Below, in pieces: positions 1-22,519 of a stretch of 24,667 nt of DNA (positions are counted from its first letter, which is position 1; the number at the start of each line of letters is the position of its first letter). Where the stretch lies: positions 1 to 24,667 of the IMG/VR virus record IMGVR_UViG_3300005581_000126; one strand, written 5' to 3'. The notes beneath the pieces are model-generated. The model saw only the letters and a list, made by a program, of their open reading frames with translations. It was not told the DNA's origin and ran no database searches. This DNA comes from a virus. The translations under genes were made by a program, and so were the position numbers.

Positions 1-3000
1 ATCACGAATCATGCGGTATGTTTTACGCACATCGGGGGGTAACTTGTTGTAGATATTTGATAGCTTTTTATACTCACTACGTTGCTTATCAGTTAATCCG
101 GGTTTATCTAAGAACTTACCATCCAACGGATCTACTTGTTCCAACCGTGCGTCATACGCCATGTTCTCCATGGCTCTAAATTGCGCAGGGTGAGTCTTTT
201 GTACTTTTTCAAAAAACTTATAGTTGTCGTTTATTACCTTAACCATCTTCTCTTCCATACCATGACGAAGCTCAAGAGAAGATAATAATTTTTGTATGGA
301 CGGAAGCTCTTTTTTATATATGGTATTTAGGTTGTCTAAACGCAGAAGCCCTGAGCCAAGTGATACTAGATTACGAGGTAGATTAGATATGTAATTTTTT
401 GCGCCTTCTATTGCCCGTCCTGTCAGACTAGGCATTTCCTGACCAATCCTACCTACTATATCGAGTCCTTCCCTAGCCGTATTAGGCGTTCCTAAAAACA
501 GCATATCTGATAAGGAAGGTTCTACATCTGCTGATATATCAATCGCATCGTTAATCAGTTTCAGCCCCGCGTCATAAGCATTAGTACCTTTACGGAAACC
601 AAAGAACTCTGCTAATACTCGCATGAAGCGTTGAAACATATTCTCACTTCTAGGAGCTTTGATGGTCTTAAGCAATGCTTGGAACTGCGGGTTACTTACT
701 AACTCAGCAGCAAATTCCTGCATATTTTGACCACCATAGAACCCGCCTAATTGATTTTGTAGTTGGTGGAACAACTCGCTTAGCTGTTTGGTGACTGGCA
801 AATTAGGACTATTCAGCACATGAGATATAGCCGCGTGTATCGTTTCATGCAGCACTGTGTGCTCATTCAACCCATGTTCTGGGCTAAGCGTAATCGTATC
901 GGTTATAGGATCGTATGAACCCGCTTGATCGTTTTCTACCTGACCAATTTTAACTTTAGTCTTAAGCCCCAGCCCTGCTATTTTGTTTAGTATTCTTTGT
1001 ACATTTGGGTTGTCTGATACATGCTTTAAATGCTGCACAAGACCTTTGAAGTTGCCACTTTTAGCCAAAGCTTTACCCATCTCAGTCAAATTAGGACCTT
1101 GATGTTTTGGAAGGTGGAATACACCTTTACCTGCTATTTTTTCAACATTACGGAAAAACTCTTCTTCCGATAGTTTTGGTTTACCAGCAGTGGTTTGACT
1201 TGCTTTAGCCTTAGGTTTCTTTTTAGCTTTAACTTTAGCGTCTTTAATACGCTGCCCCATAACAGAATCAAATTCATCTAAAGCTTCTTTATTAACCCCT
1301 GTCACAAAATCTTCACGGGTTTCAGTTGGTGCAGCAGCCAACCTATCCAATATTGGTTCTAATTTAGGCTCTAGCTGTAAGATTGCTTTACGTGATGCGC
1401 TAAGGTCTACTTTATTTTTCTCTACGCGGTCTTTTACCCCTTTACCTTTATCCGGTGCATTTGCTACATCATAGGCAGTAAAGTATTTATTAAGCAGGGT
1501 AGGTAATTTTAAGTAGTTGTGCGCAGGGGTATCTTCTAAACCCTCATACGATACTAAATTTGGATCGACCCCAGCATCTTCAGCAGCGGTGCGCAGTCTG
1601 TTTTTGAGCAGCTCAGTAACCCGCCGGTCAGCTTTGGTTGTAGGTTTAGGTGTTGGTTCTGGTTGTTCCTCTAGTGAAGTATCGACTCCTCTTTCTCCTG
1701 CATTAGAGACGTCAACATCATATCCAGTTGGTCCCAATCCGCCGATGTCAGGTGCTCGAGAGCCTCCGGTATCCTCACGTTCAGACTCTGCGCTTCCGAT
1801 AGTAGCTCCAGGGCTAGGTTCAAATCCTCCGGTTTCAGTTTGTGTAGTTGGCTCATTCTGAGTCTCCATTTCTCTAATTTGAAATAAAGGGTCGCTTAAC
1901 AGTTTTTCTATTTTTGTCGCCGCCCCTGCAGGTGCATCTTTACTGTTAGCAAGTGCTGTCAGCATATCCACTACTTCTTTTGACTGCTCAGGATTTGACA
2001 AATCTTTACCGGCAAATGGTCCTTCAGGTCGTAATATTTTGGCAGTATTACCGACACCAATAGCTTTACCAAAAGCTTTTAATTCATCTTTAGTGGAGCC
2101 GATAACAGTTCCGTTTACACCTATTTTTTTATAACGGTTTAACCGTTCTTGTTCTTGCGTAGCCTTTATACGCGCTTCCGCTTCTTTGTTTATGGATTCG
2201 TCAAAAAGGTCTTGCTGTCCAGTCTCCAATACATCTTTTACAGCAGCTTCCCTTTCTTGATCTTGTTTTTGAAGGCCCTCATCAAACTGTTCCGTCCATG
2301 AGCCTTGCACAGCATTTTTATATTTCTCGAACTCTTCTTGTCTAGTGGTTGTTTGCCGTTCACGCAGTAGTTCATTTACACGAGCTTGTACTTCTGGATC
2401 CAATGATCCTTGACCAGTTTGTATTACTTCTTGCGCTTGCGCCTCTATATCGGCATCTGTTTGTTCTTGCTTTTGAATATCCTCATCAAACTGATCGAAC
2501 AGAGTGCCTTGATTTATTTTTTTATCAGCTTCAGCAGCAGCTTTTTGTCTAGCGCCCGCTTGTTGTTCACGTAGTATTTCGTTTGCACGAGCTTGTACTC
2601 TTGGATCTAACGACCCCTGGCCTGTTTGTACTACTTCTTGCGCCTGTGCTTCTATATCGGCATCTGTTTGTCCTTGCTCTTGCCTTTGGACGTCCTCATC
2701 AAATTGTTCTGCCCAGGAACCTTGTGTTGCATTTTTATATCTTTCAAATTCTTCTTGTTTTGCTTGCTCAGCCGCAGCCGCTTCTTCTTGTTGTGCTTGC
2801 TCAGCCGCAGCAGCTTCTCGCTGTTTAGCAGCCTCATCCGATAACGTTCTACCACGCTCAGCCGCACCGCCTACTGCTCCGAACCCACCGCCCGCAATAG
2901 CTCCACGGACACTGGACTCCATGATTCTGTCCCATTCCTTGCTTTTAAATATCTGTGGGTGGTTAGCGACAAACTTCTCTGCGGCTATACTAATAGCCTC

Positions 3001-3894
3001 TTGTGCACCTTCAGTAAGCCCTTCACCAACGGAGCCTTTTAAAATACCTGCTGATACGCTACGCAATAGGCTTTTATCCATACCAGATTTCTCTAGTATT
3101 TTTTCCACTACGCCTACTTTAAGAGGCCCAGAAATTTGCTTAGCTAATTGTGCAGGGAGAATGGAATCTAACGCAGCGGAGCCAGCACCAAAAAGTAAAG
3201 ATACGCCTACATCTAACTGACCTGTTTTCTCATAGATATTTTGGAATATCTCTGGGGCGTTTTGTGCGTAAGACCCTAAGAATACACCTACATTTGTACC
3301 TAACGTTTGTTTAGCAGCAATTTGTGGTGCGGCACGTTTCATGCCTTCCGTAACAAAAGCTTGTGCAGCTTCTCCAGCCAACCCTTTTTCAGCGGCTTCA
3401 GACGCGAGTGACTTACCTACTGAAGCTAAAGCGGCACGCTTAGCAACTTGCCCAGCACCCAGTCCGGGTATAAGCGAAGTAGCTATGTTTGGTAATTGCT
3501 CACCTATTACTTCAGAACCAAACTGAAGCGCATGATAGGGTGTCTCTACTTCTTTATATGATTTGAAATACGCAGGGTTAGTAGCCTCTATCTCTTGTTG
3601 AGTCTGCTCCGCTTCCCCCATCTGACGTTTTGCATACTCTTCAAAGCCTAGTTTTTTTCCTACCATAGCAGGAATTACATCACCGAATGTCACACCCAGT
3701 TGTTGTGCACCACGTTTGATACCTTGTCCAGCAACTCCTAAAAGCCCAGGCCCATAATCCTTGCGCAACCGTTGCATCTCATCCCTATCATGAAGCTGTT
3801 GCGCTGTTTGAAGTATGGTATTTTCATCCGCGCCTTCAGGACCTTCGATGTTATAAACTTTACCGTTAGGAGCTTGTACTTTATAGATAGGCAT
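1..3894 (-). CDS. Giant internal (ejection) virion protein with HExxH zinc-protease motif, 3' end missing
   Basis: The frame is open from ATG at 3894 to base 1, so at least 1298 codons are present and the C-terminus lies outside the window. Residues about 1-25 form a short domain (PNGKVYNIEGPEG) common at the start of phage internal proteins. Residues about 350-550 are Gln/Glu/Ala-rich with internal repeats, and residues 883-903 are Lys-rich. A zincin motif HETIH lies at H1016-H1020. A downstream EFAAE (E1060, E1064) probably supplies the third zinc ligand. The part after about 1100 looks helical. Size, position after two other internal proteins and the zincin suggest a polyvalent protein ejected with the DNA, comparable in place to T7 gp16. 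The start is 6 nt after the previous stop, with no strong Shine-Dalgarno, so translation is probably coupled. The protease role is inferred. Confidence 0.85.
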   Translation of the reverse strand, partial: MPIYKVQAPNGKVYNIEGPEGADENTILQTAQQLHDRDEMQRLRKDYGPGLLGVAGQGIKRGAQQLGVTFGDVIPAMVGKKLGFEEYAKRQMGEAEQTQQEIEATNPAYFKSYKEVETPYHALQFGSEVIGEQLPNIATSLIPGLGAGQVAKRAALASVGKSLASEAAEKGLAGEAAQAFVTEGMKRAAPQIAAKQTLGTNVGVFLGSYAQNAPEIFQNIYEKTGQLDVGVSLLFGAGSAALDSILPAQLAKQISGPLKVGVVEKILEKSGMDKSLLRSVSAGILKGSVGEGLTEGAQEAISIAAEKFVANHPQIFKSKEWDRIMESSVRGAIAGGGFGAVGGAAERGRTLSDEAAKQREAAAAEQAQQEEAAAAEQAKQEEFERYKNATQGSWAEQFDEDVQRQEQGQTDADIEAQAQEVVQTGQGSLDPRVQARANEILREQQAGARQKAAAEADKKINQGTLFDQFDEDIQKQEQTDADIEAQAQEVIQTGQGSLDPEVQARVNELLRERQTTTRQEEFEKYKNAVQGSWTEQFDEGLQKQDQEREAAVKDVLETGQQDLFDESINKEAEARIKATQEQERLNRYKKIGVNGTVIGSTKDELKAFGKAIGVGNTAKILRPEGPFAGKDLSNPEQSKEVVDMLTALANSKDAPAGAATKIEKLLSDPLFQIREMETQNEPTTQTETGGFEPSPGATIGSAESEREDTGGSRAPDIGGLGPTGYDVDVSNAGERGVDTSLEEQPEPTPKPTTKADRRVTELLKNRLRTAAEDAGVDPNLVSYEGLEDTPAHNYLKLPTLLNKYFTAYDVANAPDKGKGVKDRVEKNKVDLSASRKAILQLEPKLEPILDRLAAAPTETREDFVTGVNKEALDEFDSVMGQRIKDAKVKAKKKPKAKASQTTAGKPKLSEEEFFRNVEKIAGKGVFHLPKHQGPNLTEMGKALAKSGNFKGLVQHLKHVSDNPNVQRILNKIAGLGLKTKVKIGQVENDQAGSYDPITDTITLSPEHGLNEHTVLHETIHAAISHVLNSPNLPVTKQLSELFHQLQNQLGGFYGGQNMQEFAAELVSNPQFQALLKTIKAPRSENMFQRFMRVLAEFFGFRKGTNAYDAGLKLINDAIDISADVEPSLSDMLFLGTPNTAREGLDIVGRIGQEMPSLTGRAIEGAKNYISNLPRNLVSLGSGLLRLDNLNTIYKKELPSIQKLLSSLELRHGMEEKMVKVINDNYKFFEKVQKTHPAQFRAMENMAYDARLEQVDPLDGKFLDKPGLTDKQRSEYKKLSNIYNKLPPDVRKTYRMIRD
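2359..2703 (-). repeat. Internal direct repeat within the giant virion gene
   Basis: Two diverged copies lie at 2359-2490 and 2566-2703, offset by 207 bp and then 213 bp after a 6-bp indel. Each encodes a segment with TDADIEAQAQEV, QTGQGSLDP and VQAR. A third partial copy of the flanking QGSWxEQFDE segment lies around 2277-2345. The repeats are in frame and encode a hydrophilic, probably helical, stretch. Confidence 0.85.
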
Positions 3895-8066: not shown

Positions 8067-9053
8067 TTATGCAGGCAACATTTTGCGAGCATTTATTTCT
8101 CTACCTTGTTTCTTGTTACCAGTTCTCGCTTTACGGACTTTGCTCATCATGTCGTATAGTTGTTTAGCCCCTGCATCAGTAGACCCGTTACCAAGATGTG
8201 ACACAACATCAGCAGGAATAACAAATTCTCCATCTGCTAATCTAGCAGGTTGCCGTGCGCCAATCTTTGCGGGTATAGAGTCAGACATCCCATCACCAGG
8301 GCCTTTCAAAAGTCTACCGCCGTCTGAGTAACCTCCTAAACGCCCACCCCCCATGTATCTTAGACTGGATGGTAATGAGGTAATACTTCCATCTGCCACA
8401 TCTTCTGATCTAACTATTTCAGCACCAATAGGCATTTGTCTAGGCACAGCGTACTCAGAACGACTTATTTGAGATTGTGGGTACATATTTGGTTGAAACG
8501 CATCTGCAATTCCACCTTCAGCTAACGTAGCCACATTGTATCTACTAGGTTCATAATTAAATCTACTAAGAGAACCTGTATACGGCTCCGACCCAGGCAT
8601 TTCTGTATTTGGCCTATTGGCCATTGTATTAATCAATCCACTGCTTATTGCAGCCGATGTAAGTGGGTTCTGCACCATATAATTACCTAGCCGTTCTGGG
8701 AACTTTAGACCGCCAGGAGTCGATTTAAACACATCCATAAGACCTGTTTCTGGGGCTATTCTAGCCACATTTGTGGCTGATCTTGCCATATTAACTGTTG
8801 GCCAAAGTGACTGACCAAATCTAGAGCCACCAAGCGCAGCAGTCTCACCTGCCGCAGCCCCACCAAGCCCTCTAGCAGCGCCCATAGCAGCTCCAGCTTC
8901 CGCACCGCCTAAAAGACCTCCAGCCCCAGGCATAATAGCCCCACCAAGTGCCCCCATAAGTGCGCCTTTAAGTGGGTCGCCTCCAGTTAATGCTGCTGTA
9001 CCAGCCCCCATCCCTGCACCTAAAAGTGCCCCAATGGCTAATGCTTGACCCAT
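8067..9053 (-). CDS. Gly/Ala-rich virion protein with conserved GPGDGMSDSIPA...GEFVIPADVV C-terminal domain
   Basis: A 328-residue protein. ATG at 9053 is chosen because GGAGG lies 5 nt upstream; an in-frame TTG four codons earlier overlaps that site. The N-terminal 75 residues are a hydrophobic Gly/Ala run (IGALLGAGMGAGTAALTGG) that could insert in membranes or pack as glycine-zipper helices. A middle linker has LAEGGIADAF, then MGGGRLGGYSDGGR (about 234-247). The C-terminal domain (251-312) contains GPGDGMSDSIPA, PARLADGEFVIPADVVSHLG and AGAKQLYDMM. I recognise this domain as recurring in many aquatic phage virion proteins, often fused to different N-termini. It may be a membrane-active internal protein. 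A tape-measure role is unlikely given its length. Confidence 0.8.
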   Translation of the reverse strand: MGQALAIGALLGAGMGAGTAALTGGDPLKGALMGALGGAIMPGAGGLLGGAEAGAAMGAARGLGGAAAGETAALGGSRFGQSLWPTVNMARSATNVARIAPETGLMDVFKSTPGGLKFPERLGNYMVQNPLTSAAISSGLINTMANRPNTEMPGSEPYTGSLSRFNYEPSRYNVATLAEGGIADAFQPNMYPQSQISRSEYAVPRQMPIGAEIVRSEDVADGSITSLPSSLRYMGGGRLGGYSDGGRLLKGPGDGMSDSIPAKIGARQPARLADGEFVIPADVVSHLGNGSTDAGAKQLYDMMSKVRKARTGNKKQGREINARKMLPA

Positions 9054-9058
9054 AATAA

Positions 9059-9063
9059 CCTCC
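9059..9063 (-). promoter_or_regulatory. Shine-Dalgarno deciding the start at 9053
   Basis: The minus strand reads GGAGG followed by 5 nt and ATG. This spacing supports the ATG at 9053 rather than the in-frame TTG at 9065, which would place the ribosome site inside the coding sequence. Confidence 0.8.
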
Positions 9064-9079
9064 AAAATAAATTAAACAT

Positions 9080-15231: not shown

Positions 15232-17349
15232 TTAAGTCGGTATGTCAGTCCATGTTACAGTATTTTGGTTGTCTACGGCTACCCAATCTGGATTTTGGTT
15301 GTCATCAATTTGCCCCCAAACCAACACGTTACCTACAACTCCGTACCCAACTACACCTGTAGGATAAACATTAGCCCCTCCGGTTACAGTTACAGTACCA
15401 ACATCACCAGTACCCGCTACCCCAATAGGGTACACATTAGCCCCTGCGCTAACTGTTACATCCCCAACCTCACCAGTACCTTCTACACCTGTAAGATCAA
15501 CATTAGCCCCTGCGCTAACTGTTACATCCCCAACCTCACCAGTACCTTCTACGCCATCTACACTAATATTCTGATCTGTCTCAACTGATACTGTGCCAAC
15601 TTCACCAGTACCCTCTACACCTGTAAGATCAACATTAGCCCCTGCGGTAACTGTTACGTCACCAACTTCACCAGTACCTTCTACACCATCTACACTAATA
15701 TTTTGATCGGTTTCTACCGATACTGTGCCAACTTCACCAGTACCCTCTACACCTGTAACCGGAATATAGTTATTGGTTTGTGTAGTTACATCACCAACCT
15801 CACCCGTACCTTCTACACCATCTAAATGAACTAATATTCCACTTATGACGGTTATGGTACCTAGCTCAGTAGTACCTTCTACACCTGTAAGATCAACATT
15901 AGCTTTACCAGTTACGGTTACATCACCAACTTCACCAGTACCTTCTACACCTGTAAGATCAACATTAGCCGTACCAGTTACAGTTACGTCACCAACTTCA
16001 CCAGTACCTTCTACACCTGTAACTGGGATGTAGTTACTTGTTTGTGTAGTTACAGTACCAACTTCACCAGTACCTTCTACGCCTGTAAGATCAACATTAG
16101 CCGTACCAGTTACAGTTACATCACCAACTTCACCAGTACCTTCTACACCAGTTGGATAGGCATTAGCCCCTGCAGTTACAGTTACAGTCCCAGCAGCACC
16201 AGTACCTTCTACACCAGTTAAGGTAATATTAGCCTTACCCGTTACAGTTACGGTCCCAGCAGCACCCGTACCTTCTACACCAGTTGGAGTAGTGTTAGCC
16301 TTACCTGTTACCGTTACGCTACCAGCCGATCCAGTGCCTTCTACACCAGTAACACTGACACTTACATTATCAACTGTTGTGTAGGTGATAATAATAGCGC
16401 CTGGAGCACCAGCACCACCATTAGCACCTGTTGCAGGATCTGCACCTGTACCGCCACCACCGCCACCATAATCACCACCCGCACCACCTGCACCAGACGC
16501 ACTACTGTCTGACGAACCAGACCCACCGCCACCGCCACCAGCACCTGCTGTGCCACCTGCAGTTATAGTAAACTCGGTACCCGCACCACCCTGACCACCG
16601 GCACCTGATGTAGTAGTTACACTCTCGCCACCACCACCGCCACCACCACCGTTAGTACCTGCGGTACCGGCATTTTCGGCTGAACCACCCGCACCACCCG
16701 CACCACCACCGAATTGAAGACCACCCGCACCACCAGTACCAGTGGTTCCTTGAGCTCCTGCGCCGCCTGTACCACCGCCACCACCGCCACCTCTATCAGC
16801 TCTATTATTGGAATCTCCACCAGCCCCGCCTGTGCCTAATGACGACCCTGCTGCGCCACCACCACCTCCTGGCCCACTACCATTACCCCCACCGTTTCCG
16901 CCAACTCCGCCAGCCCTTTCAGTAGTAGCAAAACCACTACTGGTGCTACCACCGTTACCACCCGTTTGTGAATTACTACCAGCTTTACCGCCAGCCGCTG
17001 AAACACCAGTAGTTGTAGAGGTCGGCGCAGTATTAGATGAAACTTTTGTGGAGGTATTCCAATTTAACCAAGTATCCCCACCGGATGTTCCCACAGTGCC
17101 CGCAGTAGTTCCGCCTGTTCCTTTAGCGCCAACTGATACATAAACTGTTGAACCAACAGTAAAATTAAGATTGGTACTTTGCCCCCATGCGCCACCACCA
17201 CCACCACCTGCGCAGCTAGATGAAGACCCTTTACTACCACCGCCACCACCACCTATACAAGTTACTGTGGCGTTAGAATTAGGAAGATAGTCCGACGGTA
17301 CCGTCCAGGTAGTCGTGCCAGTTGTGATGAGGATCGTTTTTGTAGTCAT
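15232..17349 (-). CDS. Glycine-rich repetitive adhesin / tail fibre protein
   Basis: A 705-residue protein in two parts. Residues 1-325 start with a short anchoring-type domain (WTVPSDYLPNSNATVTCIG) and become extremely Gly-rich (GGGGGG runs). This resembles polyglycine-sandwich adhesin domains, such as those described for T4-like gp38 adhesins. Residues 334-685 are exactly sixteen 22-residue repeats of the form TGVEGTGEVGDVTVTxxANVDL, probably a beta-solenoid or stalk. The last 20 residues (from NPDWVAVDNQ) are not repeats. No strong Shine-Dalgarno precedes the ATG, and a terminator hairpin ends just upstream, which may limit expression. The composition and position beside the tail fibre suggest receptor binding (inferred). 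Confidence 0.8.
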   Translation of the reverse strand: MTTKTILITTGTTTWTVPSDYLPNSNATVTCIGGGGGGSKGSSSSCAGGGGGGAWGQSTNLNFTVGSTVYVSVGAKGTGGTTAGTVGTSGGDTWLNWNTSTKVSSNTAPTSTTTGVSAAGGKAGSNSQTGGNGGSTSSGFATTERAGGVGGNGGGNGSGPGGGGGAAGSSLGTGGAGGDSNNRADRGGGGGGGTGGAGAQGTTGTGGAGGLQFGGGAGGAGGSAENAGTAGTNGGGGGGGGESVTTTSGAGGQGGAGTEFTITAGGTAGAGGGGGGSGSSDSSASGAGGAGGDYGGGGGGTGADPATGANGGAGAPGAIIITYTTVDNVSVSVTGVEGTGSAGSVTVTGKANTTPTGVEGTGAAGTVTVTGKANITLTGVEGTGAAGTVTVTAGANAYPTGVEGTGEVGDVTVTGTANVDLTGVEGTGEVGTVTTQTSNYIPVTGVEGTGEVGDVTVTGTANVDLTGVEGTGEVGDVTVTGKANVDLTGVEGTTELGTITVISGILVHLDGVEGTGEVGDVTTQTNNYIPVTGVEGTGEVGTVSVETDQNISVDGVEGTGEVGDVTVTAGANVDLTGVEGTGEVGTVSVETDQNISVDGVEGTGEVGDVTVSAGANVDLTGVEGTGEVGDVTVSAGANVYPIGVAGTGDVGTVTVTGGANVYPTGVVGYGVVGNVLVWGQIDDNQNPDWVAVDNQNTVTWTDIPT
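15295..16350 (-). repeat. Array of sixteen 66-bp coding repeats
   Basis: Sixteen in-frame units of exactly 66 bp each, with no indels between the first (ends at 16350) and the last (15295-15360). The GVEGTGEVG half is nearly invariant in the middle units. The other half alternates among types ending in TANVDL/GANVDL, SNYIPV/NNYIPV and DQNISV. The two edge units on the low-coordinate side are the most diverged. Confidence 0.93.
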
Positions 17350-18144: not shown

Positions 18145-18560
18145 TATGACATCCTTATTATTGCGCTATTAGCTGAATTTGTTGGGAATTGTACCGTAAA
18201 TGCCTTATCGTCGACAATCTTATCACTACCAAAATTTAATATGGCGATAGATCTGTTTGCTTTGCTTGCGTTGTAAATTAAAGCCCCACGACAAGTAAAT
18301 GACGCTGACGCCCAAGTAGTATCATCAAAGCTCACATATACCACAGAACCTGATGAACGCACCGTAGCTCCAGTAAGCACATTACCACCAGCAGTATACC
18401 CTGCCCCATCAACCTCATCGGTTATTGTATAAACAGTGGTGTCAGCGCCCAAATCCGCATTAGCGGTATATAGAGCTATCTGAATCGTGTCTATAAGAAG
18501 ATCGTGTACACCTTCATACAACTCTTTTTTAAATGACGTGGTTTGAGTTTGCGTAATCAT
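18144..18560 (-). CDS. Conserved beta-rich virion protein (paralogue B)
   Basis: A 138-residue protein with the same layout as the gene at 17419-17850: FKKELYEGVHDL, IALYTANADLG, GYTAGGNVLTGA, CRGALIYNASKANRSIAIL, FTVQFPTNSANSAIIRMS. It is more acidic in the middle than paralogue A and lacks its GTGNT loop near residue 27. The start overlaps the stop of the connector gene as ATGA, and it has no good ribosome site, so it is probably translated by coupling. Its stop overlaps the next start as TAATG. It is likely a virion protein with a beta sandwich fold; the specific role is not known. Confidence 0.8.
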   Translation of the reverse strand: MITQTQTTSFKKELYEGVHDLLIDTIQIALYTANADLGADTTVYTITDEVDGAGYTAGGNVLTGATVRSSGSVVYVSFDDTTWASASFTCRGALIYNASKANRSIAILNFGSDKIVDDKAFTVQFPTNSANSAIIRMS

Positions 18561-19210
18561 TTAACTGGATACCTAACCTGACCATTACGATAAGCGTCTT
18601 GACGGTTTCTACCATCACCAAGTTGTTTAAGCAACAACATAGCTTCTTCATACCTTTGCTGATAATAGCTCATCATATCCTGCTCGCCTTTCATAAACAC
18701 GTAGGCTTCTAATAGCGACCCATATAATAATGCTGAGTAGAAATTATCACCTAACCAAGACGTACCCGCGTCTACAATACTTTCTGGATAGTAGAAATAA
18801 TGAAGTTCTGCTTCATAATTATCATCTGGTGTTGGCCCTAATATGAAAGACAGCTCATCTGGGTTGCCTTGTCTAGGACCAAATATCGCGTAATACTCAG
18901 GAACACCTTGGGCAGTAGCTGAAGTTGGATATGACTGCCGTATAAAATTTACATCTTTATCAAGCAAATAATGGTATTCGTCATCACCATCAATCACAGC
19001 TAATGAAAAAACAGACAAGAAATCACTTGGGGCCGCTAAGTATTTATTTCCAGCCGATAGGGTACCTGTCACATTCTTACGCAATGCTGGTAACTGCACT
19101 ACGTTATAGATACGCTGCTCAGCGTTTTTTACAAATGTGGCAAGCTCATCGGCTGTAAATACATTTTCAGTATAATCCTGAATAGCTGCAGTGAGTTCCG
19201 TATAATTCAT
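18557..19210 (-). CDS. Head-tail adaptor-like protein
   Basis: A 217-residue protein. A helical N-terminus with MNYTELTAAIQDYTEN and TFVKNAEQRIYNVVQLPALR (25-44) leads to a strand region (YLAAPSDFLSVFSLAVIDGD). A conserved middle has YYAIFGPRQG, LILGPTP-like FILGPTPDDNY and LHYFYYPESI. A C-terminal helical bundle contains FYSALLYGSLLEAYVFMKGE. This N-helical, beta, C-helical plan is that of gp4/gp11-type adaptor proteins joining portal to tail in podoviruses. I recall close relatives annotated as phage adaptor. It overlaps neighbours on both sides (TAATG at the start, ATGA at the end). Being downstream of the capsid and upstream of the nozzle fits this role. Confidence 0.78.
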   Translation of the reverse strand: MNYTELTAAIQDYTENVFTADELATFVKNAEQRIYNVVQLPALRKNVTGTLSAGNKYLAAPSDFLSVFSLAVIDGDDEYHYLLDKDVNFIRQSYPTSATAQGVPEYYAIFGPRQGNPDELSFILGPTPDDNYEAELHYFYYPESIVDAGTSWLGDNFYSALLYGSLLEAYVFMKGEQDMMSYYQQRYEEAMLLLKQLGDGRNRQDAYRNGQVRYPVK

Positions 19211-19452
19211 TAACCCATTTTCCCACTAGTTTTACGACCTTTGATGGCAGCTCCATACCCACGCATCTCCCCAACACCACAAGGATTTTCTGGAGGGTAC
19301 TTACCTTTGCTGATGCCGCCCACTGATATGTTCATCTCATTCATACATTCAGCGCCTGTACCATACTTTGAATAGGTTTCTACATTAGTAGTTTTACCTT
19401 CCATCGTATGCGGCTGAGCGTATTCGGTTGCTGGTTTGCTGTTCTTAGCCAT
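19210..19452 (-). CDS. Small protein with RGxGAAxKGxKxxGKM tail motif (80 aa)
   Basis: An 80-residue hydrophilic protein. The body contains VETYSKYGTGAECMNEMNIS and a Gly/Pro loop with two cysteines (C36 and C58). The C-terminus MRGYGAAIKGRKTSGKMG resembles a short basic tail (RGxGAAxKGxKxxGxM) found at the end of many small phage proteins (from memory). No fold or activity can be assigned. The start overlaps the upstream stop as TAATG with AAGGGG in reach, and the stop overlaps the adaptor start as TAATG. It therefore belongs to a tightly coupled connector cluster. Confidence 0.78.
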   Translation of the reverse strand: MAKNSKPATEYAQPHTMEGKTTNVETYSKYGTGAECMNEMNISVGGISKGKYPPENPCGVGEMRGYGAAIKGRKTSGKMG

Positions 19453-19616
19453 TATTTACCCCTTGAAGTCCCACGTTGGTTCATAGCACGCGCCATGTTA
19501 CGTCCGTATTTTTTCATAGCTTCAGACGTTACGCCACCCTTTTTCATACCGTGCATACGGGATTCGTGCGCCTTAACTTCTTCTTTAGCAATTTTTTTCA
19601 TCGTATCGTTAGCCAT
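19452..19616 (-). CDS. Small KKGG protein (54 aa)
   Basis: A 54-residue gene, ATG at 19616 with AGGAG 5 nt upstream. TAA at 19452-19454 overlaps the next ATG as TAATG. The protein opens with a Lys/Glu-rich helix (MANDTMKKIAKEEVKAHESR). It continues MHGMKKGGVTSEAMKKYG and ends in RNMARAMNQRGTSRGK. The HGMKKGGVTSxxMKKYGRNMA pattern is familiar from small marine phage proteins. It is strongly basic, with no cysteine and no membrane segment. It shares the (K/R)KGGV element with genes at 21115-21558 and 20996-21103. Function is unknown. A DNA-contacting or assembly role in the head is possible. Confidence 0.88.
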   Translation of the reverse strand: MANDTMKKIAKEEVKAHESRMHGMKKGGVTSEAMKKYGRNMARAMNQRGTSRGK

Positions 19617-20057: not shown

Positions 20058-20999
20058 TTACCCGTAATAAAACATATTCCGTGGCACAATCCGCAGTGGG
20101 GACGTATCCCGATCTTCTTCTGCCGCTAACTGCCACTGTTCTTCGTATTCTTGTTTAAGGAACGCTATCCTATTAGTATCTACTTCAGGTAATTTAACAC
20201 TTAAATAATAGGCAAGACCTGCTACTAAGGCGGGTAATAATCTAAATGGTATGTCCTGCTCGTATGTGCCATTAGAGCCAGCGTCTTGAAGGCGCTTCAT
20301 TCTCCAATACACAAACAAGTATTGATTCCCTGGAGGGTTTGGAGTAGGCCAAATATTGATACAAGGTAAGTTTTGCACAGTGACGTATGTCGTTGGTCCT
20401 GCTGTATGTGAGGCCGCCGAAGTACCGTTTTGCCCACGAGCGCAATTCAACAACGTGTTATTAGCTATGTCTACGTTAGGATAACTAATAGTCTCTGAGC
20501 CAATCTTTATGAACCCAGCCGCAGGTAGATTTGTTACTGAAGTTAGAGCTATAGTTGTCTCAGTCAAACCAATACTTGTGTCTAACGTAACAGTGGTTGT
20601 GTATTCTTTACCTGTTTGACGATTAAACCACATTTGGATTGGCCGCCCTTGGGTGAGCTTATTAGGAATAGTTGAGTAGGTAGGCTCTGCGATTCTACTA
20701 ATATTTATGTCGGTTTGATTAGTAGTACCGTTATTCTGGCGAACAACATGATCTAATAAATCAATAGTATCCGACGCTATAGGATATATTGCCTGCCCAG
20801 TCACCAACGGTATGACACCTTGCTCTACCGTCCATAAGTTCAACCCTCGATTAGCCCATTCAATGGTTAACAGGTTAAGACTTCTTCTAGCCGTACGCCA
20901 ATCATAGCCACTACGCAACTCTTTACCGCAACGCTCAAAACTTTCTTCAATCAAGCTATTGAGGTCTAGATTAAAGCTTGTAGCACCAGATGTACTCAT
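20058..20999 (-). CDS. Head-tail connector-like protein with inserted beta domain
   Basis: A 313-residue protein. The N-terminal helical part (FNLDLNSLIEESFERCGKEL, then RTARRSLNLLTIEWANRGLN) is followed by a strand region (IYPIASDTIDLLDHVV). The C-terminus has INIWPTPNPPG, YLFVYWRMKRLQDAG, IPFRLLPALVAGLAYYLSVK and LKQEYEEQWQLAAEEDRD. I recognise this as a conserved connector or adaptor-type protein of aquatic phages, near relatives of which lack residues about 140-206. That segment is a beta domain with IGSETISY and NCARGQNGTSAASHTAG. The start overlaps the 35-residue gene as ATGA. It probably joins portal to tail together with the 217-residue adaptor-like protein, though which is proximal is unclear. 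Confidence 0.78.
   Translation of the reverse strand: MSTSGATSFNLDLNSLIEESFERCGKELRSGYDWRTARRSLNLLTIEWANRGLNLWTVEQGVIPLVTGQAIYPIASDTIDLLDHVVRQNNGTTNQTDINISRIAEPTYSTIPNKLTQGRPIQMWFNRQTGKEYTTTVTLDTSIGLTETTIALTSVTNLPAAGFIKIGSETISYPNVDIANNTLLNCARGQNGTSAASHTAGPTTYVTVQNLPCINIWPTPNPPGNQYLFVYWRMKRLQDAGSNGTYEQDIPFRLLPALVAGLAYYLSVKLPEVDTNRIAFLKQEYEEQWQLAAEEDRDTSPLRIVPRNMFYYG
20382..20576 (-). repeat. Inserted GxExIxY/CxRG beta domain in the connector gene
   Basis: Residues about 142-206 of the 313-residue protein read TTIALTSVTNL, IKIGSETISYPNV and CARGQNGTSAASHTAG. This is the same pattern as the two domains in the nozzle gene at 11189-11602, about 9 kb away. Confidence 0.72.
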
Positions 21000-21103
21000 T
21001 TTTTAACTTTTCCGCCTCGTTTGTACATAGTAACCTTATTAGGATTATCCTTACGGGTAATCTTTTTAGGCTTTGGCATTTTGGATGGGCTTATAGCCCC
21101 CAT
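20996..21103 (-). CDS. Very small basic protein (35 aa)
   Basis: A 35-codon gene. ATG at 21103 gives MGAISPSKMPKPKK, then ITRKDNPNKVTMYKRGGKVKK. TGA at 20996-20998 overlaps the connector start as ATGA. I prefer 21103 over the in-frame ATG at 21079 because MGAxSPSKMP is a recurring start of small phage proteins in my memory. The ribosome site GAGG lies only 1 nt before this ATG, so 21079 (27 residues) remains possible, though it has no site at all. Twelve of 35 residues are Lys or Arg. It ends in the KRGGKVKK tag seen in its neighbours. Function is unknown. Confidence 0.75.
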   Translation of the reverse strand: MGAISPSKMPKPKKITRKDNPNKVTMYKRGGKVKK

Positions 21104-21104
21104 A

Positions 21105-21108
21105 CCTC
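21105..21108 (-). promoter_or_regulatory. Unusually close Shine-Dalgarno for the 35-aa gene
   Basis: The minus strand reads GAGG, one nucleotide, then ATG at 21103. This spacing is shorter than the usual 5-9 nt and suggests weak or coupled initiation. Confidence 0.45.
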
Positions 21109-21114
21109 TACTAG

Positions 21115-21558
21115 CTAGCACTTGCCGCCTTTTTTCATGGTGACTTGTTTAGCTCTTGTTTTACCTTTAGAAGCCACACCGTCAGCCGATTTGTGTCCAG
21201 CAGCTAAACCACCAGCAGCCATTTTTTTAGTTACTCCACCTTTTCTCATAACAGCAGATGTAATTGGAGGTGCTTTTCTTTGTGCAGCCGCAGGAAGGGG
21301 TTTTCTTGCCGCTACAGGAAGTGGCTTTTTCTCTTCCATTTCTCTTTGCTCATGCTTAATCATAGCTTTAGGAGCGCCTTTTCCTTTCATAAAAGCCACT
21401 TCTCTTTGCATCATTCCTTTAGGTTCTTTCATTTCTCCACCTTCCTTTTTAGAAAATTCACGGCCTACACTCTGTGGTACACCCACTTTTTTAGCAAAAT
21501 CTTTGCTATGGGCAACCGCTCTCATAAACTTTTCCTGCTTCTTTGATGTGGCAGGCAT
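21115..21558 (-). CDS. Modular basic protein with KGG and ADGVASKGKTR motifs (147 aa)
   Basis: A 147-residue, strongly basic protein built of three recognisable blocks. First, MPATSKKQEKFMRAVAHSK then KKVGVPQSVGREF (1-35) resembles small phage proteins starting MPAxSKxQxxFM, including DUF3008-like ones. Second, MKEPKGMMQREVAFMKGKGA then MIKHEQREME (43-74). Third, after a Pro/Ala linker, MRKGGVTKKMAAGG (104-117), ADGVASKGKTR (125-135) and a terminal MKKGGKC. It starts in a TAATG overlap with the upstream gene, which carries a near-identical ADG motif. No enzyme motif is visible. An assembly-associated or DNA-condensing role is a guess. Confidence 0.8.
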   Translation of the reverse strand: MPATSKKQEKFMRAVAHSKDFAKKVGVPQSVGREFSKKEGGEMKEPKGMMQREVAFMKGKGAPKAMIKHEQREMEEKKPLPVAARKPLPAAAQRKAPPITSAVMRKGGVTKKMAAGGLAAGHKSADGVASKGKTRAKQVTMKKGGKC

Positions 21559-21968
21559 TACACAAACCGCCCTCTAGTCTTACCTTTTTGCGCTATACCG
21601 TCAGCCCTACGAGATGCTGAAGAGCTAACTGAACCGCCTTTAGCATACTTCTTAGTTTTTACCTTACCGCCTTTTTTCATGTTATACGGGTTTTGATTAT
21701 ATGGGTTTTGAGCGTATGGGTTTATCGCTTGTTGCCCAATCATCGACCCAATTGAGTCGCGCATCCATGAGGGTACTGTTGATACGCTACTACCAGTAGT
21801 AGTACGTGGAGGTAAGGCTACTGGTGGCTGCGGTTGTACTTGCGGTTGTGGTCTTGCAGGCATTGGTCTTCCAATTATTGGCTTTCCAGGCGTTCTACCC
21901 CTTAAAACTGAAGGTATCTCCTGTGCTGAGCCAATCCCACCAAACGCCATTTTTTTAACTTTTTTCAT
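21558..21968 (-). CDS. Proline-rich basic protein ending in KGG and ADGIAQKGKTR motifs (136 aa)
   Basis: A 136-residue protein. The start MKKVKKMAFGGIGSAQ is basic. Residues 25-60 are Pro-rich (ARPQPQVQPQPPVALPP), and 83-96 hold an Asn-Pro-Tyr repeat (NPYAQNPYNQNPYN). The end has MKKGGKVKTKKYAKGG (97-112), then SASRRADGIAQKGKTRGRFV (117-136). The last block is one I know from many uncultured phage proteins and is shared with the next gene. The protein is probably disordered over most of its length. AAGGG lies about 9 nt upstream of ATG. Function is unknown; the shared tail suggests a common binding partner or maturation step. Confidence 0.8.
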   Translation of the reverse strand: MKKVKKMAFGGIGSAQEIPSVLRGRTPGKPIIGRPMPARPQPQVQPQPPVALPPRTTTGSSVSTVPSWMRDSIGSMIGQQAINPYAQNPYNQNPYNMKKGGKVKTKKYAKGGSVSSSASRRADGIAQKGKTRGRFV

Positions 21969-21973
21969 GGTAA

Positions 21974-22225
21974 TTAACCCTTATAGGAACCACTCAGTTT
22001 ATCTAATTTAGCTTCTAATCTTAAGAACCCATCATCAAAATGTTCTCTAAGAGCGTCAATATCCGACTTAACCTCAGCGCGTGTTATATGCTCTCTGGCA
22101 ACTTCTTCTCTAGTCCTATTTAATAGGATACTAATTCTTTGAAGCTCCTCAAATTTTTCTTTAAGCATAAAACCTAGTATCCCCACAAAAATTGTTAGGG
22201 CTATATTCCAATACAATATATCCAT
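21974..22225 (-). CDS. Membrane-anchored coiled-coil protein (83 aa)
   Basis: An 83-residue protein from ATG 22225, chosen because AGGGAG lies 8 nt upstream. An in-frame GTG three codons earlier overlaps that site. Residues 3-22 (ILYWNIALTIFVGILGFMLK) form one membrane helix. The rest is a charged helix with heptad spacing (EKFEELQRISILLNRTREEV, then SDIDALREHFDDGFLRLEAK). An N-terminal anchor followed by a coiled coil fits an i-spanin-like or holin-accessory protein. It is far from the lysis pair, and no embedded outer-membrane partner was found. I would call it a small membrane protein with possible lysis or ejection role. Confidence 0.75.
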   Translation of the reverse strand: MDILYWNIALTIFVGILGFMLKEKFEELQRISILLNRTREEVAREHITRAEVKSDIDALREHFDDGFLRLEAKLDKLSGSYKG

Positions 22226-22233
22226 ATGGCCCA

Positions 22234-22239
22234 CTCCCT
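22234..22239 (-). promoter_or_regulatory. Shine-Dalgarno deciding the start at 22225
   Basis: The minus strand reads AGGGAG, then 8 nt and ATG at 22225. The upstream GTG at 22232-22234 touches the site, so it cannot use it. Confidence 0.7.
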
Positions 22240-22519
22240 AACATTTCCATCGCTTACGCGCCTGACGTAGCCTGCTATTAGGATCATTTGCTGCTTCTGT
22301 AAACTGCTTCATTTGTCCCGCACTCCTTGCACAAAATGACTTTCTTCTTTTTGCTCGTGCCTCACTAGGATTACTTTCTGTTACAGCGGTCTTTAGCTTG
22401 GAACCGGGATTGGCCCGACGATAGGCTGCAACACCTTTTTGCGTCATGCCAGCACCTTGTTTAGTCGGACGGAAATTGCCCGACTTAACAGATGTTTTTA
22501 TCCCCATTCCTTTAGCCAT
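22238..22519 (-). CDS. Small highly basic protein with RRKSFCARSAG...RKRWKC pattern (93 aa)
   Basis: A 93-residue protein rich in Lys and Arg. It contains GMTQKGVAAYRRANPGSKLK (24-43), TAVTE, then RRKSFCARSAGQM (58-70) and the C-terminal RLRQARKRWKC. This set is the signature of a small protein common in aquatic phages that I associate with DUF6321 (from memory, unverified). The two cysteines (C63, C93) and high charge could allow DNA binding, but no defined DNA-binding fold is evident. It starts 2 nt after the previous stop with no good ribosome site. It heads a run of basic small proteins reaching to 20996. Confidence 0.82.
   Translation of the reverse strand: MAKGMGIKTSVKSGNFRPTKQGAGMTQKGVAAYRRANPGSKLKTAVTESNPSEARAKRRKSFCARSAGQMKQFTEAANDPNSRLRQARKRWKC

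Follow-up and report, generated by a model that had tools for sequence, protein, structure and literature searches.

A recurrent C-terminal tag on variable, charged proteins encoded between head and adaptor genes of uncultured phages

The locus described here lies in the 24,667-base virus record IMGVR_UViG_3300005581_000126, which was analysed over its full length and is referred to below as the window; its virion genes are on the minus strand, as are all features located in the following. Two neighbouring genes of the window encode small proteins that carry a short sequence of the type ADG[IV]Ax[KR]GKTR, the core of what we call the type-1 tag, each with a K-G-G element nearby. The first is a 136-amino-acid (aa) protein (21558–21968) with a variable Pro/Gln-rich body and an MKKGG element, in which a K-G-G/Ser linker, MKKGGKVKTKKYAKGGSVSSSASRR (21606–21680), directly precedes the C-terminal tag ADGIAQKGKTRGRFV (21561–21605; core ADGIAQKGKTR at 21605–21573). 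The second is a 147-aa protein (21115–21558), which contains MRKGG and ends in ...TMKKGGKC; its core ADGVASKGKTR (21186–21154) is followed by AKQVTMKKGGKC, and the tag is internal, with 12 residues after it. A 41-aa open reading frame (ORF) with a GTG start (20996–21121) ends in ...YKRGGKVKK and has homologues in 17 of the 101 related loci of at least 9 kb. A 54-aa protein (19452–19616) has the K-G-G part, MKKGGV, and no ADG core. The C-terminus of an 80-aa protein (19210–19452) is formed by a sister (type-2) tag, RGYGAAIKGRKTSGKMG (19213–19263), which is the third, divergent tag copy of the window (MRGYGAAIKGRKTSGKMG). A preliminary description of this DNA had placed a cluster of such tags at 20996–22519. 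Its two core positions and its list of K-G-G variants were exact, and the 136-aa and 147-aa proteins are indeed tagged; the 93-aa and 86-aa genes within that span carry neither tag, and the sister tag is located outside it. Among 11 window proteins, the best common 11-residue stretch has 9 identities, compared with a maximum of 8 in 200 shuffled sets. Six small proteins together hold 6 copies of the [KR]GG motif, whereas 2000 shuffles gave 1.4 on average and reached or exceeded the observed count in a fraction of 0.0015.

Relatives of the window were fetched from IMG/VR by similarity to its proteins (the best 80 of 279 stretches for the 136-aa query and the best 80 of 131 for the 147-aa query), and the tag core was defined by a regular expression. 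Copies of the window were left out of the counts (L160 and L161, and in the total of tagged ORFs also L001). The tag-bearing GTDB contig L325 was likewise dropped, as an assembly chimera whose GC content falls from 0.75 to 0.37 at the contig end. Most relatives of the 136-aa protein matched its last 30–40 residues only, and the tag alone as query gave at least 480 matching stretches. We counted 741 distinct ORFs with the type-1 core, spread over 290 loci. The protein ends exactly four residues past the core in 468 of them and one residue past it in 45. The profile of the tag reads GG, linker, SASxR[AG], D-G-[ICV]-A-x-[KR]-G-K-T-[KR]-G-[KR]-hydrophobic-[VCIL]-COOH, the last pair usually being a hydrophobic residue followed by V, C, I or L. 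A profile search added 33 tag matches beyond the regular expression, 26 of these at E-values up to 0.04. In 382 of 384 C-terminally tagged ORFs a GG stands within 24 residues upstream of the tag, and the spacing from GG to the core D is nine residues in 273 of the 468 C-terminal tags. The K-G-G and ADG elements, listed separately in the preliminary description, are thus two parts of one tag. The bodies in front of it are many and unrelated; single-linkage clustering gave 97, 108 or 64 body clusters depending on the run, approximate figures, since one or two very large clusters are probably partly fused through KGG repeats.

As a check on selection bias, loci were also fetched with queries that lack the type-1 tag. 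All 20 loci of at least 9 kb fetched with the 80-aa query hold tagged ORFs (mean 2.3), and so do all 27 fetched with the 54-aa query (mean 3.0). Among the 153 loci fetched without the tag, many of which are short fragments, 87 have a distinct tagged ORF. Among their 10,877 ORFs of all lengths, 257 have the core pattern in gene orientation, and the opposite strand has no occurrence.

The tag is constrained as a protein sequence. Where homologous bodies have diverged to 20–35% identity (39 pairs), the 16-aa tag is still 80% identical; for diverged bodies the tag is thus kept better than the rest of the protein, which was the check proposed in the preliminary description. Over 471 homologous-body pairs, tag identity stays at 74–80% for body identities between 32% and 87% and reaches 88% at a body identity of 98%; between non-homologous bodies it is 71%. 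The pairs counted here, and those used below for junctions and hypervariability, are not independent of one another. Pairwise nucleotide differences in the tag amount to 0.28, 0.26 and 0.62 at the first, second and third codon positions, and selection therefore acts at the protein level. Two tags from the same locus resemble each other no more than two from different loci do, be it in amino acids (0.695 versus 0.690) or in codons (0.445 versus 0.436). The tags of a locus are therefore neither recent copies of each other nor tuned to each genome, and a partner of the tag, if there is one, looks common to the whole group.

The tagged genes form one hypervariable cassette between head genes and the tail adaptor. 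The gene order is head protein, DUF6321 protein, often an 86-aa protein, tag cassette, 313-aa adaptor-like protein, Zn-type protein, 54-aa protein, 80-aa protein and SU10-type adaptor. In the window, the conserved upstream flank is the 93-aa DUF6321 protein (22238–22519; PF19846, E 8.4e-15), accompanied by the 86-aa protein with its N-terminal hydrophobic stretch (21974–22234). The conserved downstream flank is the 313-aa SU10-adaptor-like protein (20058–20999; PF24175, E 7.7e-10), and the SU10-type adaptor itself has 217 aa (18557–19210; PF24175, E 4.1e-26). In the 101 loci of at least 9 kb, homologues were found of the head protein in 64, DUF6321 in 84, the 86-aa protein in 44, the 313-aa protein in 99, the Zn-type protein in 95, the 54-aa protein in 81, the 80-aa protein in 66 and the SU10-type adaptor in 100. 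The DUF6321, Zn-type and 313-aa genes are all present in each of the 27 tag-selected loci of this size, and the head protein of one relative matches phrog_371 (major head protein). A comparison of 39 hand-picked records was made, consisting of 33 long contigs of 40–68 kb and six named records. In all 33 contigs the tag matches fall inside 4.3 kb, four of the contigs having a single match.

Hypervariability was assessed in locus pairs whose SU10-type adaptors are 75–90% identical. The Zn-type, 313-aa, 54-aa, 80-aa and SKKQ-tagged genes recur in the partner locus in 97–100% of cases (SKKQ-tagged 97%, 54-aa 99%), a 138-aa gene in 96%, DUF6321 in 85%, the head protein in 80% and the 86-aa membrane gene in 44%. 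The variable tagged bodies recur in 20% (1,084 cases). Truncated loci account for some of the misses, and BLAST has more difficulty with bodies that are short and disordered, yet it did find the SKKQ-tagged gene of the same cassette and the short 54-aa gene. The bodies of tagged ORFs are net basic, with 32% charged and 21% hydrophobic residues, compared with 18% and 33% in six neighbour proteins, and a strongly hydrophobic 19-mer occurs in 3 of 378.

The presence of the same tag on many unrelated, charged and rapidly changing proteins, encoded next to head genes, points most readily to a conserved partner in the virion that they share. A common partner had been proposed in the preliminary description and is the natural reading of these data; the capsid interior, which was among the partners named there, would fit the gene order, the charge and the hypervariability. 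We favour the view, to which we give about an even chance, that the tag acts as a C-terminal address label. It would direct proteins that are variable, small, charged and in the main probably unfolded to the virion, with the head as the most likely place of packaging, and from there they would probably be ejected into the host. The partner would be a conserved head component such as the shell interior, the scaffold or the portal. The bodies may then be effectors aimed at the host, their diversity being maintained by an arms race.

The position of the cassette suggests another kind of partner. The last tagged stop codon lies 0–1258 bases from the adaptor-like gene in 25 of 27 loci, the cassette preceding that gene, and sister tags are also found beyond the first adaptor-like gene. 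The tag might thus be an assembly handle at the neck that docks proteins on the portal or adaptor, either on the outer face or inside the channel, instead of loading head cargo. Neck parts are few and conserved, whereas no genes of the region vary as much as the tagged bodies, which are also highly charged, and this reading therefore fits less well; we consider it unlikely, although it stands first among the rivals.

The charge itself has a further possible meaning. The mean net charge is about +16 per tagged protein (262 representatives), and K or R occupies five positions of the tag profile, as would be expected if the tag were a protamine-like basic tail that binds nucleic acid and condenses or escorts packaged DNA without any protein partner. 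However, a generic basic tail needs no invariant D, G, G and T, no hydrophobic end and no identity of about 80%. In the 40-sequence profile K and R are freely interchanged at several positions and D, G and T are not (the profile based on the regular expression has D, G and T preset). It is quite improbable that the tag is such a tail, although packaged DNA is still a candidate partner, since the tag is basic.

Recombination junctions fall at the tag. In 36 pairs the same body is followed by different downstream DNA, and in 120 pairs the same downstream DNA is preceded by a different body; in both sets identity switches over in the linker and tag. For example, L090:1462 and L259:3251 share an identical body but differ in the tag behind it, and their downstream DNA is unrelated. 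It could be argued that the tag is mainly a junction, a short homology for gene swapping whose protein sequence is incidental. This seems improbable to us and ranks behind the basic tail, since the DNA itself is not kept (62% of third codon positions differ from locus to locus), and swapping is better seen as a consequence. Last, it is highly improbable that the tag serves degradation or processing, as a C-degron or a protease site: the C-terminal location and non-polar end do resemble some ClpXP signals, but a conserved stretch of 20–25 residues with a linker exceeds the needs of a degron. Prohead proteases of the T4 and phiKZ types usually cut after Glu, which is found between −8 and the end in only 12 of 468 tags; this speaks against a T4-type site. 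The protease or maturation signal entertained in the preliminary description, with cleavage at Gly-Gly, is thus unsupported.

Several observations weigh against the reading of the tag as an address label for head cargo. At body identities above about 80% the tag is conserved no better than the body, its core being kept while the remainder varies, and in the 147-aa family the tag stands mostly 11–26 residues from the end. Similar adaptors are also found in the six named relatives, yet only MinM2 has the type-1 tag and the other five do not. In a Pfam and PHROG scan of 119 tagged proteins, no internal-virion function was recognised except for one weak match (phrog_5745, internal virion protein, E 0.0014, 1 of 119), and the literature searched yielded no virion proteomics of a tagged phage. 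Neither tag nor tagged body gave a fold: AlphaFold returned none for a 203-aa tagged body (mean pLDDT 40) and no predicted structure for the tag region of the 147-aa protein (pLDDT 50–58). To these may be added the difference in tag position from the T4 system described below.

The nearest precedent is phage T4. There, according to PMC9026906, a short conserved capsid targeting sequence (CTS) targets the small basic proteins IPI, IPII and IPIII, which have divergent bodies, to the head; the bodies of these internal proteins differ between related phages, the CTS is a possible route for various proteins into the head, and one of the proteins, IPI, is an inhibitor of a restriction enzyme of the host. 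The window resembles T4 in that one short tag is placed on several small basic proteins with divergent bodies. It differs in that the CTS is N-terminal, about 10 aa long and cut off by the prohead protease, whereas the tag here is C-terminal. No sequence similarity was seen between the two, and packaging, proven in T4, is inferred here. In the C-terminal position there is a likeness to encapsulins, whose targeting peptide sits after a flexible linker, as does the present tag. According to PMC8346489, a short C-terminal targeting (cargo-loading) peptide addresses unrelated proteins to the HK97-fold shell of Family 1 encapsulins; compared by eye, the tag profile does not match the consensus given there, SDGSLGIGSLKRS. 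Encapsulins are cell compartments, and the tag would bind a shell only by analogy with them. The tag would therefore work in a mode like that of the CTS and of encapsulin cargo peptides without being homologous to either. What appears to be new is this particular tag, while a conserved tag on variable, probably packaged proteins is of a kind already known.

We put forward more tentatively, as a possibility somewhat short of even, that a lineage of uncultured phages uses an undescribed C-terminal tag, independent of T4 and encapsulins, as a plug-and-play socket: any body joined to it would be loaded and injected, and recombination at the tag would swap bodies and maintain a pool of anti-host or anti-defence proteins. 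If this were true, the tag would reveal from sequence alone which uncharacterised proteins of these phages become part of the particle and probably reach the host; approximately 100 unannotated body clusters would be so marked. It would also be transferable, serving to direct other proteins into phage heads, and T4 would be joined by another, independent example in which variable cargo bears a conserved tag.

The family scans covered 119 of 262 representatives, the residue profile 40 of 126 sequences, and one homologue set 52 of 80 together with the window. No Pfam or PHROG family is common to the tag in the 119 tagged proteins. A profile search of the Protein Data Bank (PDB) with the tag gave a best E-value of 1.7 and nothing convincing, as did PDB searches with the 80-aa, 93-aa, head and 313-aa adaptor-like proteins; the 217-aa adaptor found 7z47, named an adaptor, at E 0.36 only, and Foldseek against the PDB with the model of the 147-aa protein gave no match at E below 2. 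A tblastn search of phages and plasmids with a typed 28-aa consensus gave no match, possibly masked by the low-complexity filter, since MinM2 carries the tag. This Synechococcus phage was the only cultured phage found with a type-1 tag, its protein WEV89192.1 ending in GRDGCAKRGRTKGRFI; the same protein is identical in Pag-Yong1 (a Planktothrix phage) and Pra-JY27. The literature searched, which leaves out most subscription papers, contained neither the tag strings nor a paper on DUF6321, and, among the matches listed, nothing relevant on Pag-Yong1, MinM2 or Pra-JY27; broader queries led only to the T4 review. A tagged body at L322:4606–5217 and L099:6583–7275 has a conserved, enzyme-like stretch, HAYRNMSQAEY. 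A likeness of the 203-aa tagged body to ADP-ribosyltransferases was unsupported by its AlphaFold model, and no such claim is made.

Related ends occur outside the type-1 group. The 80-aa gene family ends in RG[YT]GAA[IT]KG...[SR]G[KP]M[GA], a pattern close to the type-1 core; one protein of Pelagibacter phage HTVC023P ends in YSRGGGAAVRGMGFKGVF, and a protein in the head region of phage DSL-LC04 in YAKGGLVTSKGQGRVIRSKKTRIC. Judging from the pattern, these ends and the type-1 tag may constitute one superfamily. Some 61–64-aa relatives of the 54-aa protein bear a type-1 tag at the N-terminus (L072:4912–5097 and L323:3607–3792).

Residues 1–41 of the 147-aa protein correspond to the SKKQxxFM module (phrog_16759, matching residues 1–39 at E 1.1e-17). 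AlphaFold predicts three helices for residues 1–40 (pLDDT 72–95 as block means), the remainder of the protein not being confident. These N-terminal 41 residues (21436–21558) have close matches in 100 phage records, and in both records examined, from phages KTN4 and SXP01, the module stands alone as a protein of 58 or 46 aa and, unlike the 147-aa protein, without the tag. DUF6321 (PF19846) matches the C-terminal ends of PHROGs 99 to 928 aa long and thus seems to be another mobile module of C-termini; L030, L081 and further loci have the type-1 tag behind it. Like the tag, it is a short C-terminal module on proteins of different length and adjoins the cassette; in sequence the two are unrelated.

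Three further proteins of the window are worth recording. A 332-aa protein (8067–9065) ends with GDGMSDSIPA...LADGEFVIPADVVSHLGNG, gave nothing above noise in Pfam or PHROG, and may hold another recurring C-terminal module. A 705-aa protein (15232–17349) contains many GVEGTGEVGTVTV-type repeats following a Gly-rich half. A 1298-aa open protein (1–3894) has a repetitive stretch with a match to phrog_2206 (virion RNA polymerase; E 3.9e-15), possibly through composition only.

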